This document shows, piece by piece, positions 21,844 to 61,868 of a DNA stretch of 64,000 nt (the stretch's first letter is position 1; every line of letters begins with the position of its first letter). The position numbers and the translations under genes are program-made. The stretch comes from a virus. The notes under the pieces were generated by a model, which was given only the letters and a program-made list of their open reading frames with translations, searched no databases and was not told the origin of the DNA. The stretch lies in IMG/VR virus record IMGVR_UViG_3300042988_001309, positions 30,094-94,093 of that record. One strand, written 5' to 3'.

Positions 21844-21877
21844 ACTGGGCGGCCCCGGGGGGACGGGACACTGCCAG

Positions 21878-21953
21878 TGGCACCGACCGGATTTGAACCG
21901 GCGACCTCCTGGTTATGAGCCAGGCGAGCACATCCGAACTGCTCCACGGTGCG
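21878..21953 (-). tRNA. tRNA-Met (CAT), initiator-like
   Basis: Read on the minus strand it folds as a 76-nt cloverleaf. The acceptor pairs G2-G7 with C66-C71 and has a C1xC72 mismatch, a hallmark of bacterial initiator tRNA. The anticodon arm is CCTGG-CTCATAA-CCAGG with anticodon CAT, and the T-arm has TTCAAAT. The three consecutive G:C pairs expected in an initiator anticodon stem are incomplete (T:A at the first). No 3' CCA is encoded. It is the only gene seen on this strand. Confidence 0.8.
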
Positions 21954-35092: not shown

Positions 35093-36415
35093 ATGGCAAC
35101 CACCGATGTGGACTCCCGCCTCCGGGAACTCAAGAGCGCCTGGAGCCGTTTGGAGACCGAGAACGATTCCATCCTGGCCACCGCACCCGTCAACGACGGC
35201 GTCCTGACCATCGACAACGACCGTCGCCGTGCGTTCCAGAAGAACGTCGCCGACATGACCGAGATCAAGGGCCTCATCTCGGACCTGGAGGCTCAGTCGG
35301 GCCTCAAGGCCTGGGCCTCGGGCGCTGCTGGCTCGGTCGCCGCGGCTCACGCCGCCGGTGCCGCTGCCCGCCCGCAGTTCAAGTCGCTCGGCGCTGCGTT
35401 CGCCGAGTCCGACGAGTTCAAGTCGTTCATGGCGAACGGCGGCATCAAGGGCGGCTACATGAACAGCCCCTGGGCCGTGCCGGGCATCGACCTCGGCGGC
35501 CAGGCCAAGAGCCTCGGCGGCCTGGAAGTCAAGGATGTCTACACGGCATCGCCGACCGGCGACATCGCCACCGGCTTCGCCCCGATCACCCGCGAGGCCA
35601 TGGTGCCCCGCCCGTTCCGCCGGATGCGGGTCCGTGACCTGTTCCCGGTCCAGAACACCTCCTCGTCCGTCATCGAGTATTTCCGGGTCACCGGCTTCGT
35701 CGGCAACTCGTCGGCCTCGGTGGTGCCCGAGCGTTCCGGTGGCGTGTTCGCCGCTGCGCCGCAGACCTCGCTGAGCTTCACGTCGCATCAGAGCGTCGTG
35801 CGCAACATCCAGCACTGGGAAGCGATCCACCGCACGACCCTCGCCGACACCCCGGCGCTCCAGGGCGTCATCGACAACGAGCTGCTCTACGGCTTGCGCC
35901 TGCGTGAGGACGATCAGATCCTCAACGGCACCGGCACCAGCGAGGACCTGCTCGGCCTCATGGTCGACCCCGACGCCCAGACCTACAGCCGTCCGGGCAC
36001 CCCGGCGGCCAACGAGAACAAGGCCGACGACATCCGCCGTGCCGCCACCAAGGTCATCTTGAGCTACTACGAGCCCACCGGCGTCGTGATGCACCCCAAC
36101 GACTGGGAGGACATCGAGCTGCTCAAGGACTCGACCGGCGCCTACGTCCTGGCCGTCGCGGTGGCCATGGGTGCCGAGCAGAAGCTGTGGCGTCTGCCCA
36201 TCGTCGACACCCCGGCCATGACCGAGGGCCGCTTCCTGGTCGGCTCGTTCGGCCTGGGCGCCAAGCTCTACGACCGCCTGGAGGGCTCGATCCGGGTCGC
36301 CGAACAGCACAGCGACTACTTCCTGCGCAACGCGGTCGTGGTCATGGCCGAGGAGCGGATCGGCATGACGATCCCGCGGCCCGAGGCCTTCGTCAAGGGC
36401 ACCTTCGGCGCCTGA
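35093..36415 (+). CDS. Major capsid protein (HK97 fold)
   Basis: 440 aa. An N-terminal coiled-coil delta region (about 1-100) precedes the mature fold, which starts near FKSLGAAFAESDEF or GGLEVKDVY. Features of the fold include PFRRMRVRDLFPVQNTSSS, the spine-helix region TPALQGVIDNELLYGLRLRE, GTGTSEDLLGLM, and the P-domain strand PTGVVMHPNDWEDIELLKD. It ends with a basic/hydrophobic strand. Strong ribosome site and flanking terminators fit the most abundant virion protein. Confidence 0.92.
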   Translation: MATTDVDSRLRELKSAWSRLETENDSILATAPVNDGVLTIDNDRRRAFQKNVADMTEIKGLISDLEAQSGLKAWASGAAGSVAAAHAAGAAARPQFKSLGAAFAESDEFKSFMANGGIKGGYMNSPWAVPGIDLGGQAKSLGGLEVKDVYTASPTGDIATGFAPITREAMVPRPFRRMRVRDLFPVQNTSSSVIEYFRVTGFVGNSSASVVPERSGGVFAAAPQTSLSFTSHQSVVRNIQHWEAIHRTTLADTPALQGVIDNELLYGLRLREDDQILNGTGTSEDLLGLMVDPDAQTYSRPGTPAANENKADDIRRAATKVILSYYEPTGVVMHPNDWEDIELLKDSTGAYVLAVAVAMGAEQKLWRLPIVDTPAMTEGRFLVGSFGLGAKLYDRLEGSIRVAEQHSDYFLRNAVVVMAEERIGMTIPRPEAFVKGTFGA

Positions 36416-37284: not shown

Positions 37285-37325
37285 GGTAAATCAGGCTTGA
37301 CGTGATTGGTCAGGCCGGTTAGGTT
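37285..37325 (+). promoter_or_regulatory. Promoter for the Y-RNA array
   Basis: A variant palindrome GGTAAA-TCAGGC-TTGACG (37285-37302) gives a TTGACG -35, 17 bp before TAGGTT (37320-37325). Start of transcription is predicted near 37332, just before the first Y-RNA-like stem. Confidence 0.6.
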
Positions 37326-37336
37326 GTCACCCGTCC

Positions 37337-37405
37337 CACTGGTGTGAAACCGCCGGATACTTCCATTTGATCAGGACCCCCTCCGGTGGTGCCCGGTTCT
37401 CAGTG
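37337..37405 (+). ncRNA. Y-RNA-like element 1 (compact)
   Basis: The ends pair as CACTG/CAGTG and the inner stem CGCCGGA/TCCGGTG closes a short loop starting TACTTC. The 3' strand carries GGTTCTC before the outer stem. Layout (outer stem, interrupted helix, conserved TACTTC and GGTTCTC) is shared with the next three elements. No tRNA-like domain is present. Confidence 0.55.
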
Positions 37406-37428
37406 AGACCACAACACCAACTGAATAC

Positions 37429-37513
37429 GACCTCGCCGGTGCGAGGGTGCGGGTTACTTCTGACTGTGAATCAGATCCAACAAACGCCCGTGCCGCCGGT
37501 TCTCGGCGAGGTC
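37429..37513 (+). ncRNA. Y-RNA-like element 2 (compact)
   Basis: GACCTCGCCG pairs perfectly over 10 bp with CGGCGAGGTC. Inside are GGTG/CGCC and TGCGGG/CCCGTG, TTACTTC, and a small hairpin TCTGA-N7-TCAGA. GGTTCTC precedes the closing strand as in the others. Confidence 0.65.
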
Positions 37514-37522
37514 CTGAACGCA

Positions 37523-37631
37523 CCCGATGGTGCGCAGTCGCGAGCTACGTCGATGGTTCAAATCCACCCGGCCCTGTAGGGCTGTAGCTCAACTGGTAGA
37601 GCATCGCTCGCGGCGCCAGGTTCTCATCGGG
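37523..37631 (+). ncRNA. Y-RNA-like element 3 with permuted tRNA-like domain (YrlA type)
   Basis: Nested stems are CCCGAT/ATCGGG, GGTGC/GCGCC and CGCGAGC/GCTCGCG, with GGTTCTC on the 3' strand. Inside is a tRNA-like fold in permuted order: a T-arm (TTCAAAT loop), an acceptor-like stem CGGCCC/GGGCTG closed by TGTA, then a D-arm GCTC-AACTGGTA-GAGC. This is the organisation described for bacterial YrlA RNAs that bind Ro60. Confidence 0.8.
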
Positions 37632-37644
37632 CCCTTCGACATCG

Positions 37645-37786
37645 GCTGGCGCCGGTGCGTAGTCGCGGGATACTTCGCCTTTCAAGCGGGTGGTCGTGGG
37701 TTCGACTCCCACTCCCGGGTTCACCCCCGGGGTAGCTCAGTGGCCAGAGCACCTTCATCCCGTGGCGCCCAGTTCTCGGCGCCAGC
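37645..37786 (+). ncRNA. Y-RNA-like element 4 with permuted tRNA-like domain (YrlA type)
   Basis: GCTGGCGCC/GGCGCCAGC pair over 9 bp, then GGTGC/GCGCC and CGGGAT/ATCCCG. The core has a T-arm (GTGGG-TTCGACT-CCCAC), a 7-bp acceptor-like stem TCCCGGG/CCCGGGG (one G:U) closed by a short loop, and a D-arm GCTC...GAGC. An additional TTCGC-CTTTCAA-GCGGG hairpin resembles an anticodon arm. It ends 38 bases before the Ro60 ATG. Confidence 0.85.
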
Positions 37787-37824
37787 TTCGTCGATCGGGC
37801 CCCTCAACCAGAGAGGAGCCCGTC

Positions 37825-39387
37825 ATGGGCAAGTTTGCCAACCAGTCCTTTGCCACCCCCAACGCCTTGAGGGTGGTCGGCCCGACCAACACCGTGGCCC
37901 CCACCTCGACCTACGAAGGTGGCGATGGCTACACCCTCGACGCTCGCACCGAGCTGTTCACCTTGGCCACCACCGACTTCGGTGGCGAGGACACCTTCTA
38001 CCAGTCCGGCAACGACCGCCTCGATCGCCTGGCGCGCCTCGTCGCCACCTTGGTCCGCGGCGGCGACACCGACTGGCTGGCCGGGTTCGCCCGCTGGCTG
38101 CGCGACGGCGCCAACATGCGCTCGGCCGCCGTGGCTGTGGCCTGTGAGTACGTCGCCGCCGGTGGCCCCAACGGCCGGGCCGTCATCGACTCGGTGTGTG
38201 TGCGCGCCGACGAGCCCGCCGAGGTGCTCGGCTACTGGCTGGCCCGCAAGGCTCGCAACATCCCCAAGCCGGTCAAGCGCGGTGTCGCCGACGCCGCCGC
38301 TCGGCTCTACACGCCCCGGAACCTCGCCAAGTACGACGGTGGCCGCTCCCCGCTGCGCTTCGGTGACGTGATCGAGCTGACCCACGCCAAGCCGGTCAAG
38401 TCCGGCCAGAGCACGCTGTTCCGCCACGCCATCGACCGCCGCCACGGCCGCCCCACCCAGCTCCGCCCCGGCGAGCTGTTCGACGAGACGCTGGAGTCGC
38501 TCTACGGCCTGGAGACGCTGCCCCCCGAGGTGCGCGTGGCCAATCTGGCCGCCGCCACGGCCCATCCCCTCATGACCTGGGAGCGCCTCGCCGGATGGCT
38601 GCCCGGCGGGATGAACGCCGCCGCCTGGGAGGCCCTCATCGACGCCGACCGGCTCGGCTACATGGCCCTGCTGCGCAACCTCAACAACTTCGACCGTGCT
38701 GGCATCTCCAAGGCGCACATCGCCAAGGTGAACGCCCGCCTGGCCGATCCCATCGAGGTCGCCGCCAGTCGCCAGCTCCCGTTCCGGTTCTACACCGCCT
38801 ACCGCACGGTGGGCTCGCTGACCTACGCCTCGGCGCTGGAGCAGGCCATGGAGTACGCCACCAGCAACGTCCCGACCCTGTCGGGGCGCACCTTGGTCGC
38901 GGTCGACACCTCGGGCTCGATGCAGTCGACGCCCTCGGGCAAGTCCACGGTCCTCATGTCCGAGATCGCCGCGGTGTTCGCCGGTGCCCTGGCCCAGCGG
39001 AGCGACGTGGACCTCATCCACTTCGCCACCGGCTCCGAGCGCATCACCCCGGCCCGGAGCGTGCTGCGCACGGTCGAGTTGATCCGCTCCCGGATCGGCT
39101 CGGTCGGCGGTGGCACCAACACCTGGCCCGCCATCGAGCGCCACTTCACCCCAGGCCGTCATGACCGGGTGATCGTGCTCACCGACATGCAGTCTCGGCC
39201 GAGCACTGCGCCGGTGCCCGCCGAGGTGCCGGTCTACGTGTGGGACCTGCGCGGCTACGGGTCGAGCGACATCGACCTCGGTCGGGGCCGGTTCCTGCTG
39301 GCGGGGTTCAGCGACAAGGCGTTCTCCCTCATCGGGACGCTGGAGCGCGGCCGCAACGCCGACTGGCCCTGGATCGTGGCGGCATGA
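37825..39387 (+). CDS. rsr: Ro60-like RNA-binding protein (TROVE + vWA domains)
   Basis: 520 aa. Residues about 20-340 are a TROVE HEAT-repeat ring (early segment GNDRLDRLARLVATLVRGGD; later SKAHIAKVNARL and LPFRFYTAYRTVG). The C-terminal vWA domain has the MIDAS set D361-T-S-G-S365, GGTNTWPAI, and VLTDMQS. A GAGAGGAG ribosome site precedes the ATG. Ro60 rings bind misfolded RNAs and Y RNAs, and in Deinococcus a Y RNA tethers Ro60 to PNPase. Finding it directly after four Y-RNA-like elements supports a functional phage RNP. Confidence 0.92.
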   Translation: MGKFANQSFATPNALRVVGPTNTVAPTSTYEGGDGYTLDARTELFTLATTDFGGEDTFYQSGNDRLDRLARLVATLVRGGDTDWLAGFARWLRDGANMRSAAVAVACEYVAAGGPNGRAVIDSVCVRADEPAEVLGYWLARKARNIPKPVKRGVADAAARLYTPRNLAKYDGGRSPLRFGDVIELTHAKPVKSGQSTLFRHAIDRRHGRPTQLRPGELFDETLESLYGLETLPPEVRVANLAAATAHPLMTWERLAGWLPGGMNAAAWEALIDADRLGYMALLRNLNNFDRAGISKAHIAKVNARLADPIEVAASRQLPFRFYTAYRTVGSLTYASALEQAMEYATSNVPTLSGRTLVAVDTSGSMQSTPSGKSTVLMSEIAAVFAGALAQRSDVDLIHFATGSERITPARSVLRTVELIRSRIGSVGGGTNTWPAIERHFTPGRHDRVIVLTDMQSRPSTAPVPAEVPVYVWDLRGYGSSDIDLGRGRFLLAGFSDKAFSLIGTLERGRNADWPWIVAA

Positions 39388-40955: not shown

Positions 40956-41774
40956 ATGGCCAACGACCTCGCCGGTCTGCTCGTCGCCTCGACGATCGCC
41001 GCCCACAAGGCCAACGGCTCCGAGGAGCTGGGATGGCTCATCCATGCCGAGGACTGGCTGTCGCGTGGCGCCCGAGTGTTCTGCGCCGTGCAGACCGGCC
41101 ACGGTCACGACCGCAACTTCGACGCCCTCTACTTGCGCATGGTGGCGTTGCGACAGGCCTTCCCTGGCCAGGTCTCCCTGTGGACCTACTCGATCGACCA
41201 GGGCGAGGACGAGGTCACCAGCGACAACCGGCTCATCGCCATCTGCACCGGCCGCAACCTCGCCCATGAGGTGGCGATCCGCGACAAGACGTGCGAGGCG
41301 ATCCTGTTCCTCGACACCGACGTGCGTCCGCCCGAGGACCTCCCCGAGCGCCTGCTGGAGATCGAACGCCCGCTGGTGGGTGGCAACGTCCCGGCCTACT
41401 GCCTCAACGGCCCGCCCGTCATCTGGGAGCCGATCACCACCGAGGGCTGGAGCGGGCCCGGCCACGCCATCTGTGGCGACGAGATCCGCTTCAACACCCA
41501 CCCGCCGTTCCCTCAGGGCGCCGACGTGCGCGAGCACTGGAACACCGCTGGCTGCCTGCTGGTGCGCCGCATGGTGTTCACCTCGATCGCCTGGCGCTGG
41601 AACCCCGACGCCGGGCTCACCGACGACCCTGCCTTCCAGACCGCCGCCCACGCCGCTGGGTTCGGCTGGACCTGGACCCGCCACGACGTGACCGTCTGGC
41701 ATGAATCCCTCGTCCCGCTGGAACAGCGCGGCCGCGACCGTTCCGTCATCCGTACCCATAGGAGCAACCCATGA
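40956..41774 (+). CDS. Glycosyltransferase, GT-A fold
   Basis: 272 aa. An N-terminal nucleotide-sugar-binding half is followed by the metal-binding DTD in ILFLDTDVRPP and VGGNVPAYCL. Later comes an FNTHPPF...EHWNTAGCLLVRR block, where the sugar acceptor loop usually lies, and a DDPAFQTAAHAAGFG segment as in family-2-like enzymes. The ATG is overlapped by a CCGTCATG heptamer. Probable role is adding a sugar to a virion or cell-surface target, with the other transferases of this island. Confidence 0.75.
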   Translation: MANDLAGLLVASTIAAHKANGSEELGWLIHAEDWLSRGARVFCAVQTGHGHDRNFDALYLRMVALRQAFPGQVSLWTYSIDQGEDEVTSDNRLIAICTGRNLAHEVAIRDKTCEAILFLDTDVRPPEDLPERLLEIERPLVGGNVPAYCLNGPPVIWEPITTEGWSGPGHAICGDEIRFNTHPPFPQGADVREHWNTAGCLLVRRMVFTSIAWRWNPDAGLTDDPAFQTAAHAAGFGWTWTRHDVTVWHESLVPLEQRGRDRSVIRTHRSNP

Positions 41775-41998
41775 GCACCACGACCCTGTTCAACGTCACC
41801 ACCCCGGCACGCCACGTCGTGACCACCAAGTCCAAGCGGCGCGCCCTGCGCAAGGTGGCCAAGGCTCATCGCCAAGGCGCCCGGCTGGTGTTCGTCCATG
41901 AGATCGACCTGGCCAACACCTCCCAGGCCCTGCTGCTCAAGAGCGAGCGCAACGCCGACCCCACCTGGTACGAGGTCGAGCTGACCCAGAAGGGCTGA
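41771..41998 (+). CDS. Hypothetical small basic protein
   Basis: 75 aa, Lys/Arg-rich (KSKRRALRKVAKAHRQGARL) then beta-rich. ATGA overlap with the glycosyltransferase. No family recognised. Confidence 0.55.
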   Translation: MSTTTLFNVTTPARHVVTTKSKRRALRKVAKAHRQGARLVFVHEIDLANTSQALLLKSERNADPTWYEVELTQKG

Positions 41999-42076
41999 CC
42001 CTGTGGTCATCAGGACCTCTGGTGACCATCAGTTACGGTGGTTCGTGTTCGGATCGAGCAACAACATGGAGGCGTC

Positions 42077-43156
42077 GTGAAGCGAGTGGCAGTGACCGGC
42101 GGGTCGGGGTTCATCGGCACCTGGGTGGTGGGGGAGCTGTTGAACCGTGGCTACGACCCGGTCGTGTTCGACCCCCACGGGCACACCAAGGTCCGTCAGG
42201 CCGACGTGATCATGGGTGACGTTCGCGACGCCACCGCGGTCACCGAGCTGGCCGCCCATGTCGACGGCATCATCCACCTCGCCGCCGTGCTCGGCACCCA
42301 GGAGACGATCGGCAACCCCCGACCGGCGGCCGAGACCAACCTCATCGGCTCGCTCAACGTCATGGAGGCCTGCGCCCAGTACCAGCTCCCCATGACCTAC
42401 ATCGCGGTCGGCAACGCCAACATGGCCAACGGCACCTACGTGCTCACCAAGACCGTCGCCGAGAACTTCGCCCGCATGTTCGCCGAGTACCGCGGGCTCA
42501 AGGTCAACTCGGTCCGGGTCATGAACGCCTACGGCCCCGGCCAGCTCGCCTGCGCCCCGTTCGGGCCGGGCAAGGTCCGCAAGATCACCCCGGCGTTCAT
42601 CTGCCGGGCCCTGTGCGGCCTGCCCATCGAGCTGTACGGCACCGGCGACCAGGTGAGCGACATGGTGTGGGTCGGCGACGCCGCCACCGTGTTGGTCAAC
42701 GCCTTGGAGCACGCCGCCCAGGGCGACGTGTGGCCGGTCACCGTCGAGGTCGGGCCGGAGCACTCGCTCACGGTGCGCCAGGTCGCCGAGGCCGTCATCG
42801 CCGCCTGCGTCGAGCGGGGCTACCCCGAGGTGCCGATCAACCTGCTTCCCATGCGCGCCGGCGAGCGCACCGAGGGCATCGCCAACGCCGCCCTCACCGA
42901 CGAGGTCATGCGCCTCATCGAGCACCGCACCACCTCGGTCGAGGAACTGTGGCGCCTGCGCCAGTGGGTCAAGCCGCTCCACAACCAGGTGCGCGCCGAC
43001 CCGACCACGCTGCGCCTCGCCGGTGTCGAGCCCTCCTCGCTCACCTCACTGGAGTTCGGCATCGCCCGCACCGTCGAGCACTTCATCGCCACCCGGGGCG
43101 TGCAGTGGCACGACCCCGACCCCACCGCCACCGTCATTGGAGGAGGAGCCGCATGA
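42077..43156 (+). CDS. NAD-dependent nucleotide-sugar epimerase/dehydratase
   Basis: 359 aa, extended short-chain dehydrogenase. The Rossmann motif TGGSGFIG is at residues 7-14. The catalytic YxxxK is YVLTK, within NGTYVLTKTVAENFARMF, and VNSVRVMNAYGPGQ follows. GTG 42077 is chosen because ATGGAGG lies upstream; earlier in-frame starts would put extra residues before the Rossmann fold. It probably supplies the activated sugar used by the neighbouring glycosyltransferases. Confidence 0.85.
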   Translation: MKRVAVTGGSGFIGTWVVGELLNRGYDPVVFDPHGHTKVRQADVIMGDVRDATAVTELAAHVDGIIHLAAVLGTQETIGNPRPAAETNLIGSLNVMEACAQYQLPMTYIAVGNANMANGTYVLTKTVAENFARMFAEYRGLKVNSVRVMNAYGPGQLACAPFGPGKVRKITPAFICRALCGLPIELYGTGDQVSDMVWVGDAATVLVNALEHAAQGDVWPVTVEVGPEHSLTVRQVAEAVIAACVERGYPEVPINLLPMRAGERTEGIANAALTDEVMRLIEHRTTSVEELWRLRQWVKPLHNQVRADPTTLRLAGVEPSSLTSLEFGIARTVEHFIATRGVQWHDPDPTATVIGGGAA

Positions 43157-43425
43157 CCGACCTCGCCCACGCCCAGGCCATGGCCCAGGCCAACGCCAGC
43201 GCCCGCCAAGCCGAGATCCCCCTCGGCCAGATCCCCACCATCGTCCAGTGCGGTGTCGCCATGGGGGTCGACGGCCAGCGCCTCGCCGTGCTGCGCGTCT
43301 CGACCCCGATGGGTCCGCTCACGTTCCTCATCACCGCCGAGCAGGCCGAGCAAGCGGGCGACCAGCTCAAGCTCGCCGCCGCCCAGGCCCGCACCGGCCT
43401 GACGATCCCCGGGATGCCGGGATGA
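43153..43425 (+). CDS. Hypothetical small protein
   Basis: 90 aa with a very strong GGAGGAGG ribosome site overlapping the epimerase end. It is beta-rich in the middle (LAVLRVSTPMGPLTFLITAE). Short proteins of this kind sit near actinophage virion genes, but no function is known. Confidence 0.55.
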   Translation: MTDLAHAQAMAQANASARQAEIPLGQIPTIVQCGVAMGVDGQRLAVLRVSTPMGPLTFLITAEQAEQAGDQLKLAAAQARTGLTIPGMPG

Positions 43426-44180
43426 CCCAGGCATCAGACATCGTCGCCTACGCCTTGGCCACCATCCCCGGCGCCCTGTATCGCCTCGGGGCCGAGGCCA
43501 ACCTCAACAACCCCGACAAGCCCAAGTACCTCGACTGTTCCGAGGCCGTCGAGTACGTCTGCTACCGCACTGGCGTCGCTCCCAAGATGCCCGACGGCGC
43601 CTGGCAACAGGCCGCCCACTGCCGCCGCCACGGCACGGAAATCTCCATCGCCGAGGCGTTCACCACCCCCGGCGCCCTGCTGTTCAAGGACTACGGCCCC
43701 GCCGGTGCCGGTGGGCTCGGCAACCACGTCGCCATCTCCCTCGGCGACGGCCGCTGCGTCGAGGCGCGCTCGGGGAAGCTCGGGTGCGGGGTGTTCAACG
43801 CCCACAACCGCACGCCGGGCTGGAACTTCGCCGCTCGCATCCCCGGGGTCACCTACACGCTGCTCCCGCCGCTGCCCGCTCCGCTGCCCCCACCCGTCAT
43901 CGCCCCCATCGAGGTGAAGCCCATGTACGACCCGCCCCTGGCCTTGCATCCCATCGTCGCTTCCTGTGACTGCCCCACCGGCGGCGCCTGGGCGCTGGCC
44001 AACGACTGGAGCGTCTACACCTTCGGGTCCGCCCCGTTCCACGGCCACGCCGGTGGCTCGGTCCACGTCGTCGGCCGGGCTCCGGCGGCCATTCGGGCCA
44101 TCACGCGCTCCGACGGCCAGCCCGGCTACGAGTGCATCGCCACCTCGGGCGAGGTGTACGGCATGGGGGGCTTCTACTGA
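43422..44180 (+). CDS. NlpC/P60-type peptidoglycan hydrolase with C-terminal repeat domain
   Basis: 252 aa. The catalytic Cys is in YLDCSEAVEYVC (about residue 40). The His is in GNHVAISLGDGRCVEA (about 104). A Pro linker then leads to an approximately 80-residue C-terminal domain (ALANDWSVYTFGSAPFHGHA) of the kind used in wall binding. It could be the endolysin or a virion-associated hydrolase. It lies among glycosylation genes, away from the holin-like genes at 62-63 kb. Confidence 0.75.
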   Translation: MTQASDIVAYALATIPGALYRLGAEANLNNPDKPKYLDCSEAVEYVCYRTGVAPKMPDGAWQQAAHCRRHGTEISIAEAFTTPGALLFKDYGPAGAGGLGNHVAISLGDGRCVEARSGKLGCGVFNAHNRTPGWNFAARIPGVTYTLLPPLPAPLPPPVIAPIEVKPMYDPPLALHPIVASCDCPTGGAWALANDWSVYTFGSAPFHGHAGGSVHVVGRAPAAIRAITRSDGQPGYECIATSGEVYGMGGFY

Positions 44181-44392
44181 TGGCCCGCTACGCCCGCCTG
44201 GAGGTCTACGAGTCCAAGGACCGCTCACCCAAACAGCGGTGGCGCTGGCGGCTGGTGAGCCGCAACGGCAACATCGTCGCCATCGGCTCCGAGGGCTACG
44301 CGCGCCCGAGCGTGGCCGAGCAGGCCGCCCTCGACGTGATCAACGGTGGCTACGACGTGACCGGCCGGATCGAGCGGGTCCACGCGACATGA
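44180..44392 (+). CDS. DUF1508-like small protein
   Basis: 70 aa. QRWRWRLVSRNGNIVAIGSE followed by GYARPSVAEQAALDVI matches the YegP/DUF1508 fold (WRWRLxAxNGxIVAxSxEGY). Family function is uncertain. ATG overlaps the hydrolase stop. Confidence 0.65.
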   Translation: MARYARLEVYESKDRSPKQRWRWRLVSRNGNIVAIGSEGYARPSVAEQAALDVINGGYDVTGRIERVHAT

Positions 44393-45351
44393 TCGACGGA
44401 CATCGGGTCGTCGGGTTCATCCCCTTCGGCCGCAAGCGCACGGTCGCCGTCATGGTCCCCTACCTGGTGCGCGCCCACCTGGAGGGCGAGCTGGACGAGG
44501 TCATGCTGTGCCTGAACTTTGAGCGCACCAGCCTCACTCAGCCGGGGTTCTTCCACCATCAACAGGCCGAGGACCTCGCCTACGCCCATGAGCTGGAAGC
44601 CCACCATCCGGGCCTGTTCCGCGTGGTCAACATCCCCGGCCCCGACACCCCCGAGCTGCTCGGCCAGGTGCCGGGGGAGTGGATGGACGGCTACCGCAAC
44701 CCCAAACAGCTCAACACTGGCCGCATCTATTGGTACTGCCAGGACCGCAACGCCGTCTACCTCCGCTTCGACGACGACATCATCTGGCTGCACCGCCACG
44801 CCATCCGCAACCTGGTGCGGGCCAAGCTCTCCAAGCCCGAGGCCCTGGCCGTGTTCCCGACCATCTGGAACAACGCCATCAGTTCCTGGACGCTCCAACA
44901 GCGCGGCATCCTCGACACCCGCATGGGCCGGGTCGCTGCGTTGGCGGTGGACCGCCTCGGCTGGGGGCACGCCCCGTTCGCGGAGTACGTGCATCAGACC
45001 CTGCTGGAGTCGATCGAGTCCGGCGACGACGGCGACCGCTTCGTGGACGAGAACTACTGGCACGCCCTGGGCTGGCGGCAACAGTTCTCGGTGTCGTGCT
45101 TCGCGGTGTCGGGCAACGAATACGCCGACGTGAACGGGGTGCTCACCTGGGACGAGGAGGAGCACTGGCTGACCATGCACCGCACGGGTGAGATCGGCAA
45201 GAGCAACTTCGTCTACGGCGGCGCCCACGTCGCCCACTGGACGTTCTTCACCCAACAGAGCTACCTCAACAAGACCGACCTGCTCTATCGCTACTGGCAG
45301 GCCAGCGAGAAGGTCACCCAGGCGCTGCCCGAGCAATGGCGATGGCGATGA
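44389..45351 (+). CDS. Glycosyltransferase, GT-A fold
   Basis: 320 aa. The metal-binding acidic cluster DDD is in YLRFDDDIIWL (about residue 127). The C-half has a WHALGWRQQFSVSC block and HWTFFTQQSYL. The start ATG overlaps the upstream stop. Part of the island's sugar-transfer set; acceptor unknown. Confidence 0.7.
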   Translation: MIDGHRVVGFIPFGRKRTVAVMVPYLVRAHLEGELDEVMLCLNFERTSLTQPGFFHHQQAEDLAYAHELEAHHPGLFRVVNIPGPDTPELLGQVPGEWMDGYRNPKQLNTGRIYWYCQDRNAVYLRFDDDIIWLHRHAIRNLVRAKLSKPEALAVFPTIWNNAISSWTLQQRGILDTRMGRVAALAVDRLGWGHAPFAEYVHQTLLESIESGDDGDRFVDENYWHALGWRQQFSVSCFAVSGNEYADVNGVLTWDEEEHWLTMHRTGEIGKSNFVYGGAHVAHWTFFTQQSYLNKTDLLYRYWQASEKVTQALPEQWRWR

Positions 45352-45584
45352 GATGCCGTCATGGCCTGTGCCTGCGCCGGGCCCGCTTCACGGTGAACGC
45401 CACCATCGGCAAGCCCGACAGCAAGGGTCTGCTCTCGTTCTCGGCGTGCGAGCGCCACGCCAACAAGCTGGCCGTGGCGCTCATGTTCGCCTACAACACC
45501 GAGGTCTCGGTGACCGGGCCCCGCTCGATCACCACGCTCACCCCCAACGGCGAGATGTCGATGGTGGTGTACCCCGATGAGTGA
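45348..45584 (+). CDS. Hypothetical small protein
   Basis: 78 aa. The ATG at 45348, which overlaps the upstream stop, is chosen over in-frame ATGs at 45336 and 45342. The N-terminus is Cys/Arg-rich (MRCRHGLCLRR) and has an AC...H pair later. Not recognised. Confidence 0.5.
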   Translation: MRCRHGLCLRRARFTVNATIGKPDSKGLLSFSACERHANKLAVALMFAYNTEVSVTGPRSITTLTPNGEMSMVVYPDE

Positions 45585-46092
45585 CTGGGTGGTCATCAAC
45601 GTCCGCATCGCCGACGAACACATCGAGGCCCCTGACGCCACGATCGTGCAACTCGACCTCGACGACTGGTGCGCCAAGGGCAACGAGCTGCTCGCCGCCC
45701 TGCCGTTCCCGGCCCCCGTCATGATCCTCACCGGCGCCTCGCTGGAGCCCGGCTGGACCACACCGATGGAGCTGGCGCTGCGCAAGGCGACGTTCGCCTC
45801 GCCCGTGCTGAGCTTCGATGGCGGCCAGACCGCCCCCGACTGGGAGCCGATCGGCTCGCTGGCATGGGCCGCATGGTCGAGCGTGCTGCTCGGCCTCGGT
45901 GGCTTCGACCCGGCGTTCACGCTGCTCCAGCACCGCTACATGGCGCTCAAGCTCGACGGCGACAACCGCACTGCAACCCACGTTGACACGGCCGTGGCGC
46001 GCCCGGCCGCCACCGACGCGCTCACCGAGCGACTGGGCCAGCTCTATTACCCGCTACTGGAGGAGCAACGACTCCTCGATGGAGGCAACTGA
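45577..46092 (+). CDS. Truncated glycosyltransferase-like protein
   Basis: 171 aa. FPAPVMILTGASLEPGWTTP and SVLLGLGGFDPAFTLLQHRY resemble pieces of a GT-A enzyme (start of the acceptor region and the GGFDxxF loop), but no DxD metal site is present. It may be a degraded or regulatory homologue of the neighbouring transferases. Confidence 0.45.
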   Translation: MSDWVVINVRIADEHIEAPDATIVQLDLDDWCAKGNELLAALPFPAPVMILTGASLEPGWTTPMELALRKATFASPVLSFDGGQTAPDWEPIGSLAWAAWSSVLLGLGGFDPAFTLLQHRYMALKLDGDNRTATHVDTAVARPAATDALTERLGQLYYPLLEEQRLLDGGN

Positions 46093-46421
46093 TGCGACCG
46101 TTCATCGAACCGTTTGAAGCCGTGAACAACCTCGACGACCTCGGTCGCCCCGCCGGTGGCTACGTCGTCGGAACCGGGCTCCAGATCGTGTGGCAGAACG
46201 GCCCACTCGGGCGCGGCGAGGAGCAGATCGAGCCCAACGGTGCGTTCGTGTCAACGGTGATTGCCGCCGTCATCCAACGGCTCCAGCACTACCAGGACTC
46301 CGAGTTCAACTGTCGGGAGAACGCGCTGGCCATCACCAAGCTGGAGGAGGCGCTCCACTGGCTGCAATCCCGCTTCGATGACCGCGAGGCGCGTGGCGTG
46401 CAAGGGACGCACGGCAAGTGA
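46092..46421 (+). CDS. Tad1/Acb2-family-like protein (candidate anti-CBASS/anti-Thoeris)
   Basis: 109 aa. A variable N-terminus is followed by VWQNGPLGRGEEQIEPNGAF, then the hairpin YQDSEFNCRENALAITKLEE, and a DREARGVQGTHG end. This matches the conserved QNGPxxxxGxNG / CRENAxAxTKLEEAL / RxARGVxGTH pattern of a common phage family that recent databases place with the cyclic-nucleotide-sequestering proteins Tad1/Acb2. From memory, Tad1 ligand binding uses a Phe and an Asn ten residues apart. Here Tyr67 and Asn77 have that spacing. Confidence 0.65.
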   Translation: MRPFIEPFEAVNNLDDLGRPAGGYVVGTGLQIVWQNGPLGRGEEQIEPNGAFVSTVIAAVIQRLQHYQDSEFNCRENALAITKLEEALHWLQSRFDDREARGVQGTHGK

Positions 46422-47167
46422 GCGAGGCACCCACCGGCTACGTCGCCACCGTGTGCTCGTACTGGCCGCTGCGTCGCGCCAACGTGGAGCGCATCGTGCG
46501 CGACCTGGCCGCCTCGACGCTGCCACCAAGCGAGATCATCGTGGTGAACAACGGCGACCTCGACTTCACCGAGCTGGCTGATGCCGACCTCGGCGTGCCG
46601 GTCGCCGTCATGACCCCGGGGTTCAACACCTGGACCCGTGGGAAGTTCATCGCCGCGCTGCTGACCCCGGCGCCCTACTACCTGATGATCGACGAGGACA
46701 CCTCGGTCGGACCGCGCACCGCCGAGGTGCTCATGAGTTGGGCCGGTGGCCGCCGAGGGATGGTGACGGGCTACTGGGGCGTGAAGCTGGCCGGGCGCTC
46801 GTTCATGTCCGGCGGCATCATCCAGCCCCACCTGCTGCCCTACGAAACCAAAGTTGACGCCTTCCACGGCCGGGCCATGTTCATGGCCTACGACGCCGTG
46901 GTGCGGATGCTCGCCGTCGAGGAGGACATCCGCATCCGCCCGGCCAAGGGTCGCCCGGCGTGGCATCACGAAGGCGACGACATCATCGCCGGGCTCGCCA
47001 ACCCCGAGGGGTCCTACGCCATCGCCCTCAAGGGCGACGCCGCGTTCGTGGACCTCGATCAGTGTGGCCAAGCCCTCCAGTTCCAAGACGGCTACTTCGC
47101 CGAGCGTGACTCGCTGACCGGCGACATCCTCGACGCTCTCGCCGCCCACCCCGCCCCGCAATGGTGA
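46418..47167 (+). CDS. Glycosyltransferase family 2-like
   Basis: 249 aa from a GTG. It opens with VATVCSYWPLRRANVERIVR, then SEIIVVNNGDLD. The catalytic DED is in YLMIDEDTSVGPR (about residue 92), and GWWGVKL-like and DDIIAGLANPEG segments follow. This is a standard GT-A layout. GTGA overlap with the Tad1-like gene. Confidence 0.8.
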   Translation: MSEAPTGYVATVCSYWPLRRANVERIVRDLAASTLPPSEIIVVNNGDLDFTELADADLGVPVAVMTPGFNTWTRGKFIAALLTPAPYYLMIDEDTSVGPRTAEVLMSWAGGRRGMVTGYWGVKLAGRSFMSGGIIQPHLLPYETKVDAFHGRAMFMAYDAVVRMLAVEEDIRIRPAKGRPAWHHEGDDIIAGLANPEGSYAIALKGDAAFVDLDQCGQALQFQDGYFAERDSLTGDILDALAAHPAPQW

Positions 47168-47182
47168 ACAGGAGACCATCCG

Positions 47183-47356
47183 ATGTCCGAGATGCGAGAA
47201 GTCGCACGGCTCACACAACCGATCCGCCTCACGACACTGCACGCCGTCATGTCGAGTCTCTCCGATCGGGCCCAGGTCGAGATCGAGGCGAGCCGCCCGC
47301 CCCGGCTGGTGTTCCTGGAGCCGGTCGACCCCGCCGAACCGAGCCCCCTGTCGTGA
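47183..47356 (+). CDS. Hypothetical small protein
   Basis: 57 aa, MSEMREVARLTQPIRLTTLH then Pro-rich. AGGAGA lies 8 bases before the ATG. It overlaps the next gene by GTGA. Not recognised. Confidence 0.5.
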   Translation: MSEMREVARLTQPIRLTTLHAVMSSLSDRAQVEIEASRPPRLVFLEPVDPAEPSPLS

Positions 47357-47529
47357 GCGCCAACCATGAGATCCCGATGGGCGACGCCGACGAGGTGGAT
47401 GCGTTCACCCGGTGGCGCACGGTGCTGCACTGGCGACCCGGTGAGCGCCACAAGATCAAGCGCCGCTACCGCAAGCGGGTCCGGCGCGAGGTGAAAGAGG
47501 CCCTGCGCCGGGACGGGGGCGAGGAGTGA
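47353..47529 (+). CDS. Hypothetical small basic protein
   Basis: 58 aa from a GTG. Acidic start, then strongly basic (RHKIKRRYRKRVRREVKEAL). Coupled to both neighbours. May bind nucleic acid; no family. Confidence 0.5.
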   Translation: MSANHEIPMGDADEVDAFTRWRTVLHWRPGERHKIKRRYRKRVRREVKEALRRDGGEE

Positions 47530-48665
47530 AGATCCACTTCGCATCGTGCGACTTCGCCGCCCCGGTCGGCGACGAGCTGCCGTCATTGGGAGGGTCGGGC
47601 TGGTATCGCTGTGGCCTGCCCGCCAAGGCGCTCGCCGCACTCGGCCATGAGATCCAGCTCGGCACGTTGGCCGCTGGCAACATCGGCGGACCACACGGCC
47701 GCCGCCGCCTCGGGGTGCGCACCTGGGACGGCGAGCTGCACTGGGACGCCGACGTGATCGTGCTCCAGCGGTGGATGCACTGGAACGTGGCCAGCGACAT
47801 CGCCGCGGCGCGCGCCGGTGGTCAGTTGGTGATCAACGACATCGACGACTGGTTCTTCGGGCTCGACCCGAGCAACCGGGCCTTCGCCAGCTCGCACCCC
47901 CGGCTCCACCCCGACGCCAACGTGAACCACTACCGCAAGGCGCTCGCGGCCAGCTCACTCATCACCACCTCGACGCCGTACCTGGCTGACCGCCTCGGCA
48001 AGATGTTCCCCCGCACCCCGATCGTGGTGCTGCGCAACATGGTCGAGGTCGACATCTTCCGCCAGCGCCACCAGCCCCGGAGCAAGCCCGTCATCGGCTG
48101 GGCCGGGGCCATCCCGTGGCGCTCGGGTGACATCGAGACCATGCAAGGCATCCTCGGGCCGTTCCTGCGCGAGTCGGGCTGCGCGTTCCACCACTCGGGG
48201 CATCGCCCGTGGGTCGATGCGTCCACCCGCGAGGAGTTGCCCACCTTCGCCGCCGCCGCCAAGCTCGACCCCTCGATCACGGTGACGACCTCACCGATGG
48301 TTCCCACCGATCAGATCCCGGCGCTGTACGAGTTCTTCGACGTGGGCATCGTGCCGCTGCGCAAGGCGCCGTTCAACGAGGCCAAGAGTGCGATCAAGGG
48401 CATGGAGATGGCCGCCGCCGGTATCCCGGTGGTCGCCGCCGACCTGCCCGAGTACCGCTGGGCCGCCAAGCTCGGCATCTGCACCGTGGCCGACCGGGCC
48501 CCTCGATGGCTCAAGGAACTGCGGGCCCTCATCCCCCAAGACGAGCGGGTCGATCGCGCCGCTGCCCAGCTCGCCGCGGTGCGCTCCCAGGCGCCATCGG
48601 TGCGGGCCCATGACTGGGTGGACGCCTACACTGACGCCTTGGATCATCTGGTCAAGACGGCTTGA
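47526..48665 (+). CDS. Glycosyltransferase, GT-B fold (GT4-like)
   Basis: 379 aa. An N-terminal Rossmann half has GGSGWYRCGLPAKALAALGH and INDIDDWFFGLDP. The C-terminal half starts PVIGWAGAIPWRSGD and carries NEAKSAIKGMEMAAAGIPVV, the nucleotide-sugar binding EXn-type segment of family 4. It is the last gene of the sugar island, ending at an operator/promoter. Confidence 0.8.
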   Translation: MKIHFASCDFAAPVGDELPSLGGSGWYRCGLPAKALAALGHEIQLGTLAAGNIGGPHGRRRLGVRTWDGELHWDADVIVLQRWMHWNVASDIAAARAGGQLVINDIDDWFFGLDPSNRAFASSHPRLHPDANVNHYRKALAASSLITTSTPYLADRLGKMFPRTPIVVLRNMVEVDIFRQRHQPRSKPVIGWAGAIPWRSGDIETMQGILGPFLRESGCAFHHSGHRPWVDASTREELPTFAAAAKLDPSITVTTSPMVPTDQIPALYEFFDVGIVPLRKAPFNEAKSAIKGMEMAAAGIPVVAADLPEYRWAAKLGICTVADRAPRWLKELRALIPQDERVDRAAAQLAAVRSQAPSVRAHDWVDAYTDALDHLVKTA

Positions 48666-48690
48666 CCAGAATCTCTCGGGTCGTTATGGT
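48650..48690 (+). promoter_or_regulatory. Promoter overlapped by operator palindrome
   Basis: GGTCAA-GACGGC-TTGACC (perfect palindrome, overlapping the preceding stop codon), 17-bp spacing, then TATGGT (48685-48690). The following gene has a GAGAGGAG ribosome site. Confidence 0.75.
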
Positions 48691-48713
48691 TCTCTCAACG
48701 AGAGGAGCCCCCT

Positions 48714-60732: not shown

Positions 60733-61868
60733 CGACCGCTACCCGGTTCACCGGCGAGCAGGCCTCGATCGAGCGCCTCGCCGTCATCCAGGATCGCATC
60801 AGCGCCATCGAGCGCATGATCGGCACCGGCCTGTCCGGCGCCATCGTCCCGATCGGGGGAGTGGTGCCCTTCTATGGCACGACCGCCCCGATCACCTGGC
60901 TGCTGTGCTACGGCCAGCTCGTCGCCAAGACCGACTACCCGGTGCTGTGGAACACCATCGGCCACGCCGGGAACGCTGGGGTCGACCCGGGCGGTGGGCA
61001 GTTCAAGATCCCCGACCTGCGCGGCAAGACGTTGGTGGGGCTCGACAACATCGGCGGGAGCGACGCCGGGATCTTGTCGATGGCCAACACCCTCGGGCTC
61101 ACCGGCGGGGCCGAGACGGTCACCCTCATCACCGCCAACCTGCCGAGCCATACCCACGCCATCGACCATGACCATGCCTCGGTGACTTCGGCGGCCGGTT
61201 CGTCGCACACCCACTCGGGCTCGGGCTCGACCGGCTCGGGTTCGTCGCACTCCCACTCGGGCTCGGGCTCCACGTCGGCGACCAGCCACTCGCACACCGC
61301 GTCGGGCTCGTCATCGGCGACCTCGCACTCCCATACGGGCTCGACGGCGTCGACCTCGCACTCCCATACGGGCTCGACGGCGGCGGTGGCTCACGGCCAC
61401 CCTGGCTCCGAGATCGGCAACGTCACCTACATGCTCACCCAACAGGCTCACGACCACTCGTCGGGGAGCGGCGGGTACGTGTCCGAGGCGTCGGACCCGA
61501 ACGACGGGGTGGGCACGCCGGTCCCGCTCAACATCGCCACCGAGTCGACCCACACCCACGGCGTGACGGTCAACTCCGAGTCGTCGCACACCCACGGCGT
61601 AACGGTCAACTCCGAGTCGTCGCACACCCACGCGGTGTCGGTGACGGTCAACTCCGAGTCGTCGCACACCCACGCGGTGTCGGTCTCTGTCGGCTCAGAG
61701 GCCAGCCATACCCATTCGGTGACGGTCTCTGTCGGCTCCGAGGCCACCCATACCCACTCAGTCGACATCGCGGCGTTCACCGGGGCGTCCGGCTCCGCCG
61801 GATCGGGCACGGCGGTGTCGCTCCTCCAGCCCTACTCGCTGTGCAACTGGATCATCCGCGCCGAGTGA
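60729..61868 (+). CDS. Second tail collar/fibre protein with extended HxH repeats
   Basis: 379 aa from ATG 60729, overlapping the hub gene by 4 nt. A short coiled coil (EQASIERLAVIQDRISAIER) precedes a collar domain like that at 58539 (ITWLLCYGQLVAKTDYPVLW ... GQFKIPDLRGKTLVG). About 180 residues follow with HTH/HSH motifs every 8-12 residues, ending SLLQPYSLCNWIIRAE. It is almost certainly a paralogue of the 58539 protein. Confidence 0.8.
   Translation: MTTATRFTGEQASIERLAVIQDRISAIERMIGTGLSGAIVPIGGVVPFYGTTAPITWLLCYGQLVAKTDYPVLWNTIGHAGNAGVDPGGGQFKIPDLRGKTLVGLDNIGGSDAGILSMANTLGLTGGAETVTLITANLPSHTHAIDHDHASVTSAAGSSHTHSGSGSTGSGSSHSHSGSGSTSATSHSHTASGSSSATSHSHTGSTASTSHSHTGSTAAVAHGHPGSEIGNVTYMLTQQAHDHSSGSGGYVSEASDPNDGVGTPVPLNIATESTHTHGVTVNSESSHTHGVTVNSESSHTHAVSVTVNSESSHTHAVSVSVGSEASHTHSVTVSVGSEATHTHSVDIAAFTGASGSAGSGTAVSLLQPYSLCNWIIRAE
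61140..61765 (+). repeat. HxH-repeat region of the second collar protein
   Basis: Tandem units of S-HTH-x-x-(S/V) such as NSESSHTHGVTV occur several times, with near-identical bases between 61540 and 61680. They are likely metal-binding turns in a trimeric fibre. Confidence 0.75.

Follow-up and report, generated by a model that had tools for sequence, protein, structure and literature searches.

Y RNAs and their Ro60 partners

Bacterial orthologues of Ro60 (Rsr) bind the lower stem of bacterial Y and Yrl RNAs, and in Deinococcus a Y RNA tethers the Rsr ring to PNPase and gates the entry of RNA (PMC4726728). The tRNA-like domain of YrlA RNAs is modified by DusA and TruB (PMC8394870), and Salmonella YrlA has been proposed to act as a competitive inhibitor against an anticodon nuclease (PMC7790460). 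The Salmonella rsr-yrlBA-rtcBA operon encodes, besides a Ro60 orthologue, more than one Y RNA (PMC7790460). Here, we describe a comparable locus in a virus, in which four tandem Y-RNA-like elements stand immediately 5' of a Ro60 gene. It lies in a stretch of 64,000 nucleotides (nt), referred to below as the window, which comprises bases 30094-94093 of the 94,093-base IMG/VR virus record IMGVR_UViG_3300042988_001309.

Four tandem elements with covarying stems

The four stem structures occupy positions 37332-37788 of the window, directly before the open reading frame (ORF) for Ro60 and on the same strand (Table 1). As a preliminary description of this DNA had it, all four share interrupted outer helices, with a TACTTC-type start of the loop and GGTTCTC in the strand that closes the stem; element 3 has TACGTC at the loop start. 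Elements 1 and 2 are compact stem-loops, in which the loops are short and both the T-arm and the D-arm are absent. In elements 3 and 4, the Y stem encloses a T-arm, a closed acceptor-like stem and a D-arm, in this permuted tRNA-like order; the elbow motifs of element 3 are GTTCAAATC in the T-loop and AACTGGTA in the D-loop. Throughout the loci surveyed (see below), a D-stem with GG in its loop comes after the T-loop in 111 of the 154 tRNA-like elements, compared with 27 in shuffled sequences.

The case for the array rests on covariation and on held-out models. Model R1 was made from 42 compact elements, including the two of the window (MAFFT alignment, 18-pair structure), and model R2 from 34 elements of other phages, without any window sequence. 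Run over the 64 kb, R2 finds exactly four elements, which score 58.7 bits (expectation value (E) 4.3e-14), 57.4 bits (E 1e-13), 38.1 bits (E 2.7e-8) and 42.8 bits (E 1.3e-9) from element 1 to element 4; the fifth match has 13.7 bits (E 0.21). The outer helices covary strongly: 88.2% of the cells in the R2 alignment pair under the 18-pair structure, two-sided changes number 169 as against 56 in shuffles, and the covariation score is 0.676 as against 0.181 in shuffled alignments and at most 0.163 when the partners are slid. The R1 alignment gives the same picture. In addition, a detector that combines the motif, the duplex and the 3' tail has four matches in the array segment, and at most one per approximate dinucleotide shuffle (n=300) or per other 480-nt segment of the window (n=522, both strands). 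The observation of four tandem elements is thereby confirmed.

Folding energy as the sole evidence was considered and rejected, given that elements 1 and 3 have a z of only -1.7 (elements 2 and 4 reach -4.1) and that a detector based on the duplex alone has many background matches. It is a weak criterion here because the sequence is 69% GC, and GC-rich DNA folds well anyway. An arm-swap test, in which the native arm was the best partner in 33 of 42 elements, is of supporting value only, since the elements were partly chosen by duplex energy.

Relation to known Y RNA families and to tRNA

The four elements have a two-helix stem of the Ro60 type with an internal loop; this stem covaries and is linked to Ro60. 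Their assignment to the Y RNA class is supported by these features, and as Y RNAs they would be expected to bind Ro60. Elements 3 and 4 also have the YrlA architecture, with an outer stem around the T-arm, the closed acceptor-like stem and the D-arm in order. The Rfam YrlA model (RF02553) matches element 3 with 42.3 bits (E 5.8e-8) and element 4 with 36.3 bits (E 3.1e-6) in an alignment that spans the full model length (1-114). These matches are significant and yet lie below the gathering score of 69, so that the two elements are not filed as RF02553 members. Across the whole 94 kb record, the YrlA model has no further such site. Elements 1 and 2 have no Rfam match to any Y family and no tRNA-like domain, and none of the array elements tested against Rfam reaches the gathering score of any family. 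A rejection of all four elements by covariance models, which the preliminary description had named as an outcome that would refute it, did not occur, since R2 accepts all four. With the Rfam YrlA model, however, elements 3 and 4 stay under the gathering score, and elements 1 and 2 go unreported.

In comparison with YrlA (Rfam RF02553; Chen et al. 2014), elements 3 and 4 are alike in the outer Ro60-type stem, the order of T-arm, acceptor-like stem and D-arm, and the Ro60 neighbour. However, they stand in tandem with compact elements that have no tRNA-like domain, and the YrlA consensus differs from the conserved TACTTC and GATCTC/GTTCTC strands seen here. The compact elements resemble the Deinococcus radiodurans Y RNA (RYPER) and vertebrate Y RNAs in having a lower helix, an internal loop, a second helix, a variable loop and a Ro60 partner, but differ from them in their short loops, their tandem arrangement in one leader and the lack of an Rfam Y match. 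The CGAAG...GUUA and CUUGA strands presumably resemble those of vertebrate Y RNAs, a likeness which we take as a lead and not as a test. Bacterial Y RNAs are described as not homologous to vertebrate Y RNAs (PMC4726728). With regard to the Salmonella operon, the RNAs of the present locus differ in lying 5' of Ro60, and up to about six copies are detected in relatives; moreover, that operon has rtcBA, whereas the Pfam scan of window proteins found no RtcB or RtcA.

The tRNA-like elements could also be seen as functionless remnants of tRNA genes that were rearranged beside Ro60. Indeed, the tRNA model RF00005 gives element 4 a score of 27.7 bits, just under the cut-off of 29. However, ARAGORN calls no tRNA within the array, and remnants would explain neither the permuted order, the covarying outer helices and the shared Ro60-linked motif nor the two compact members without tRNA parts. 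This explanation is contradicted by the covariation and by the conservation across viral and bacterial Ro60 loci; it was rejected, and its probability is close to nil.

The Ro60 protein

The downstream ORF is, according to its domain match and modelled structure, a Ro60 with the ring and VWA fold. Its TROVE domain scores 65.8 bits in Pfam (cut-off 23), the AlphaFold model has a predicted local distance difference test (pLDDT) value of 89.7, and Ro60 structures rank first in Foldseek, including Xenopus Ro60 with RNA (1YVP; template modelling (TM) score 0.75) and the Ro60 of Thermus phage phiLo (9l5y). The phiLo protein, to which the TROVE entry 9kop is related, is a phage Ro60 of the same fold, with about 28% identity to the window protein. 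The D-x-S-x-S, T and D residues of the VWA metal site (D361, S363, S365, T431 and D454) are invariant across 19 aligned Ro60 proteins of viral contigs, the window protein among them, as is H187. The latter is aligned to H187 of Xenopus Ro60, which we take to have a role in Y RNA binding. In a tree constructed from 163 Ro60 proteins, the window protein is on a long branch in a set of 15 (14 viral and one bacterial). As the whole tree requires 17 changes of the phage/bacterium label, phages and bacteria appear to have exchanged the Ro60 gene repeatedly.

Arrays in other phages and in Actinobacteria

Similar elements are found 5' of Ro60 in the Streptomyces phages Alone3, GiJojo, BRock, pSt2308, Quantum and Frankenweenie, in Arthrobacter phage Atuin, in the Gordonia phages VanLee and Rabbitrun, and in three IMG/VR contigs. 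Most actinophage elements carry a motif near G(A/G)TGCGnAG, n4-8, GGTTACTTC. Two exact-pattern scans of IMG/VR for the 24-nt array motif gave 150 loci, in which Ro60 was called by a hidden Markov model made from Ro60 proteins. Ro60 was present in 105 of them, and in 103 of those 105 the motif lies upstream on the same strand. For comparison, any Ro60 match is found in only 88 of 50,697 GenBank phage records. Where Ro60 is missing, many of the motif loci are short fragments or escape recognition by R1, and a few (e.g., L035, L038, L060 and L078) have strong R1 matches and no Ro60 in the available DNA.

Some further observations concern the annotation and surroundings of these phage loci. In several Streptomyces and Arthrobacter phages (L005, L006, L007, L008 and L010), the arrays and Ro60 lie within large tRNA gene clusters. 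In Alone3 and GiJojo, a tRNA-Ser or tRNA-Arg is annotated where a Y element directly precedes Ro60, and in Rabbitrun (L012) the small hypothetical proteins annotated ahead of Ro60 as genes 93 and 94 overlap with Y elements predicted there and are possibly spurious.

The same arrangement exists in bacteria. When R1, representing the viral elements, was applied to the 80 best actinobacterial Ro60 genes (E <= 0.1, counted by hand), elements were found upstream of approx. 75 of the 80, with one to five per locus; 54 of these loci have at least two elements, and seven have four or five. The genera include Streptomyces, Nonomuraea, Planobispora, Micromonospora, Rhodococcus, Lentzea and others. Ten of these bacterial genomes, 7-11 Mb in size, were searched with the best 150 candidates of each being scored; there were 19 matches at E <= 0.01, every one of them in the Ro60 locus. 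Rfam, used at the gathering threshold on 20 bacterial loci, reports none of the elements found by R1. The view that an array of four is unusual hence does not hold: two to five tandem elements before Ro60 are common in actinophages and Actinobacteria, and the present array is a member of a widespread design, not a one-off.

The order of the elements is conserved as well. It was counted with the detector in 85 viral and 50 bacterial loci with at least two elements, some of which are near-copies of one another; at looser settings, this detector has a background of 46 matches on the opposite strand as against 387 upstream. The first element is compact in 62 of the 85 viral and 29 of the 50 bacterial loci, above the expectation from composition (permutation p <0.0002 and 0.003, respectively). 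The commonest orders are compact-tRNA-like-tRNA-like and compact-tRNA-like, and the window has compact-compact-tRNA-like-tRNA-like. The median spacer between elements is 11 nt.

Layout of the locus and its expression signals

Table 1. Features of the Ro60 locus (positions in the window)
Feature	Position	Strand	Basis	R2 match span
Sigma70-like promoter TTGACG-17-TAGGTT	37298-37326	+	Sequence; inferred	
Y element 1, compact, without tRNA-like domain	37332-37410	+	R2 model, fold	37332-37410
Y element 2, compact	37428-37514	+	R2 model, fold (z -4.1)	37429-37513
Y element 3, tRNA-like (YrlA architecture)	37520-37634	+	R2 model, Rfam YrlA match	37520-37634
Y element 4, tRNA-like (YrlA architecture), extra hairpin ahead of T-arm	37644-37788	+	R2 model, YrlA match, fold (z -4.1)	37646-37784
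Hairpin CGGGCcCCTC/GAGGaGCCCG, pairs likely Ro60 Shine-Dalgarno	37796-37822	+	Fold (z -2.3); function inferred	
Ro60 orthologue, 520 aa, TROVE ring and VWA domain	37825-39387	+	Pfam, AlphaFold, Foldseek	

Judging by its genes for terminase, portal, prohead protease, capsid and tail proteins (Pfam scan), the source of the window is a tailed phage. The capsid gene (35093-36412) and two small ORFs come directly before the Ro60 cassette. An operator-promoter had been proposed in front of the array. The promoter-like sequence is there and ends within 10 bases of element 1, whereas a search for an inverted repeat beside it found only a 6-nt direct repeat, and the operator was dropped. A transcript that started about 7 nt past the promoter-like sequence would begin with the first base of element 1. 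Among 109 loci, promoter scores of at least 9 occur just 5' of the first element in 19%, as against 3%, with a median of 10 (by the script's measure) from the end of the -10 to the start of the element. Because promoter-like sequences are enriched at this place, the first RNA of the array may start at its own 5' strand.

Between element 4 and Ro60, a hairpin with a 9-bp stem lacks a T-run and is not a standard terminator; as it covers the likely Shine-Dalgarno sequence of Ro60, translational control in cis is possible. By eye, locus L001 has a similar hairpin over the likely Ro60 Shine-Dalgarno sequence. This raises the question of whether the whole array is a cis-regulatory leader, in which the stems in the 5' region of the Ro60 mRNA sense Ro60 or tRNA-like ligands and control translation without being released as free RNAs. 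The elements do sit in the Ro60 leader, the hairpin pairs the likely ribosome-binding sequence, and inspection by eye showed no terminator-like hairpin with a T-run in the DNA that separates the array from Ro60 in the window. However, the architecture of the stems matches that by which YrlA RNAs, acting in trans, are known to bind Ro60, a leader switch does not need tandem copies with full tRNA elbows, and terminator-like or extra promoter-like sequences lie between the array and Ro60 in several relatives (e.g., L003, L009 and L005). We therefore regard such a leader as distinctly unlikely.

Elsewhere in the window, the stretch 41000-48700, amid capsid and tail genes, holds a sugar-nucleotide epimerase (42038-43153) and a possible glycosyltransferase (47526-48662), which suggests phage glycosylation functions. 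Imperfect tandem repeats of 36-42 nt with TCGCACACCCAC-type cores lie near tail genes (61150-61770), and a lone tRNA-Met(cat) gene lies at 21877-21953 on the minus strand, with its neighbours on the other strand.

How the array might function

In our opinion, the locus is probably a phage Ro60 ribonucleoprotein cassette, in which one transcript supplies several Ro60-binding Y RNAs. The transcription, processing, binding and division of labour that we infer would be as follows. One promoter would yield a leader transcript in which the Ro60 mRNA comes after the four tandem Y RNAs, and cleavage in the short spacers would release each Y RNA, which would then dock on the outside of the Ro60 ring through the conserved two-helix stem. 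By analogy with published Y RNAs, the compact RNAs, consisting only of the Ro60-binding stem and a small loop, might stabilise Ro60 and gate its cavity. The tRNA-like RNAs, in which a permuted tRNA elbow takes the place of the loop, might serve as a tether between the ring and a partner (e.g., PNPase, an exonuclease of the host), or might instead act as mimics that compete with tRNA for tRNA-binding enzymes. Several points weigh against such a cassette. A Pfam scan of 26 proteins of the window found neither PNPase, RtcB nor another RNA-processing gene (the 30 kb by which the record exceeds the window were not annotated), elements 3 and 4 remain below the Rfam YrlA gathering score, and the array could act in cis on the expression of Ro60.

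The phage context also raises the possibility of counter-defence, with the tRNA-like elements as decoys for host enzymes that cleave or modify tRNA and with Ro60 as a stabilising carrier. The conserved D/T elbow, the location of several relatives in phage tRNA clusters and the anticodon-nuclease inhibitor role proposed for Salmonella YrlA (PMC7790460) are consistent with this. On the other hand, the elements lack an anticodon arm, and half of the array is compact and without tRNA mimicry. Because like arrays precede Ro60 in assemblies of Streptomyces and its relatives, their function would not be only anti-host, unless all of these loci are prophages. Decoys of this kind thus seem rather unlikely to be the explanation.

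The idea of a Ro60 ribonucleoprotein cassette can be taken further. Each Ro60 ring might be served by a programmed set of interchangeable Y RNAs, made up of compact gates and several tRNA-elbow modules and encoded as a conserved, previously unmodelled compact-first multi-RNA operon, in which phages would carry and vary the tRNA-like modules so as to redirect, in the course of infection, host enzymes that bind or cleave tRNA. This extension is speculative, and we would give it only a small chance of being correct.

Implications

The core interpretation of the preliminary description, namely Y-RNA-like elements 5' of a phage Ro60, two of them of the YrlA design, is supported by the held-out models, the covariation, the YrlA matches and the Ro60 fold. 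YrlA candidates were reportedly noted by Chen in 2014 in many bacterial and phage genomes. What appears to be new, as far as the prior literature could be checked, is that the compact elements form a recognisable covariance family, that they come first when in tandem with YrlA-type elements and that they are linked almost exclusively to Ro60. One covariance model covers the conserved leader arrays of compact and tRNA-like Y RNAs in phages and Actinobacteria, which Rfam has below threshold or not at all, and the array elements can serve as the seed of an RNA family for annotating such loci. There are many genetically tractable systems, e.g., Streptomyces with the phages BRock, Alone3 and Quantum, in which to ask what the job of each Y RNA type is. 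The published accounts cited here have bacterial Ro60 working with one Y RNA or two. Because rows of elements precede Ro60 in many phages and soil bacteria, our findings suggest that these Ro60 proteins have a set of RNA partners rather than one.
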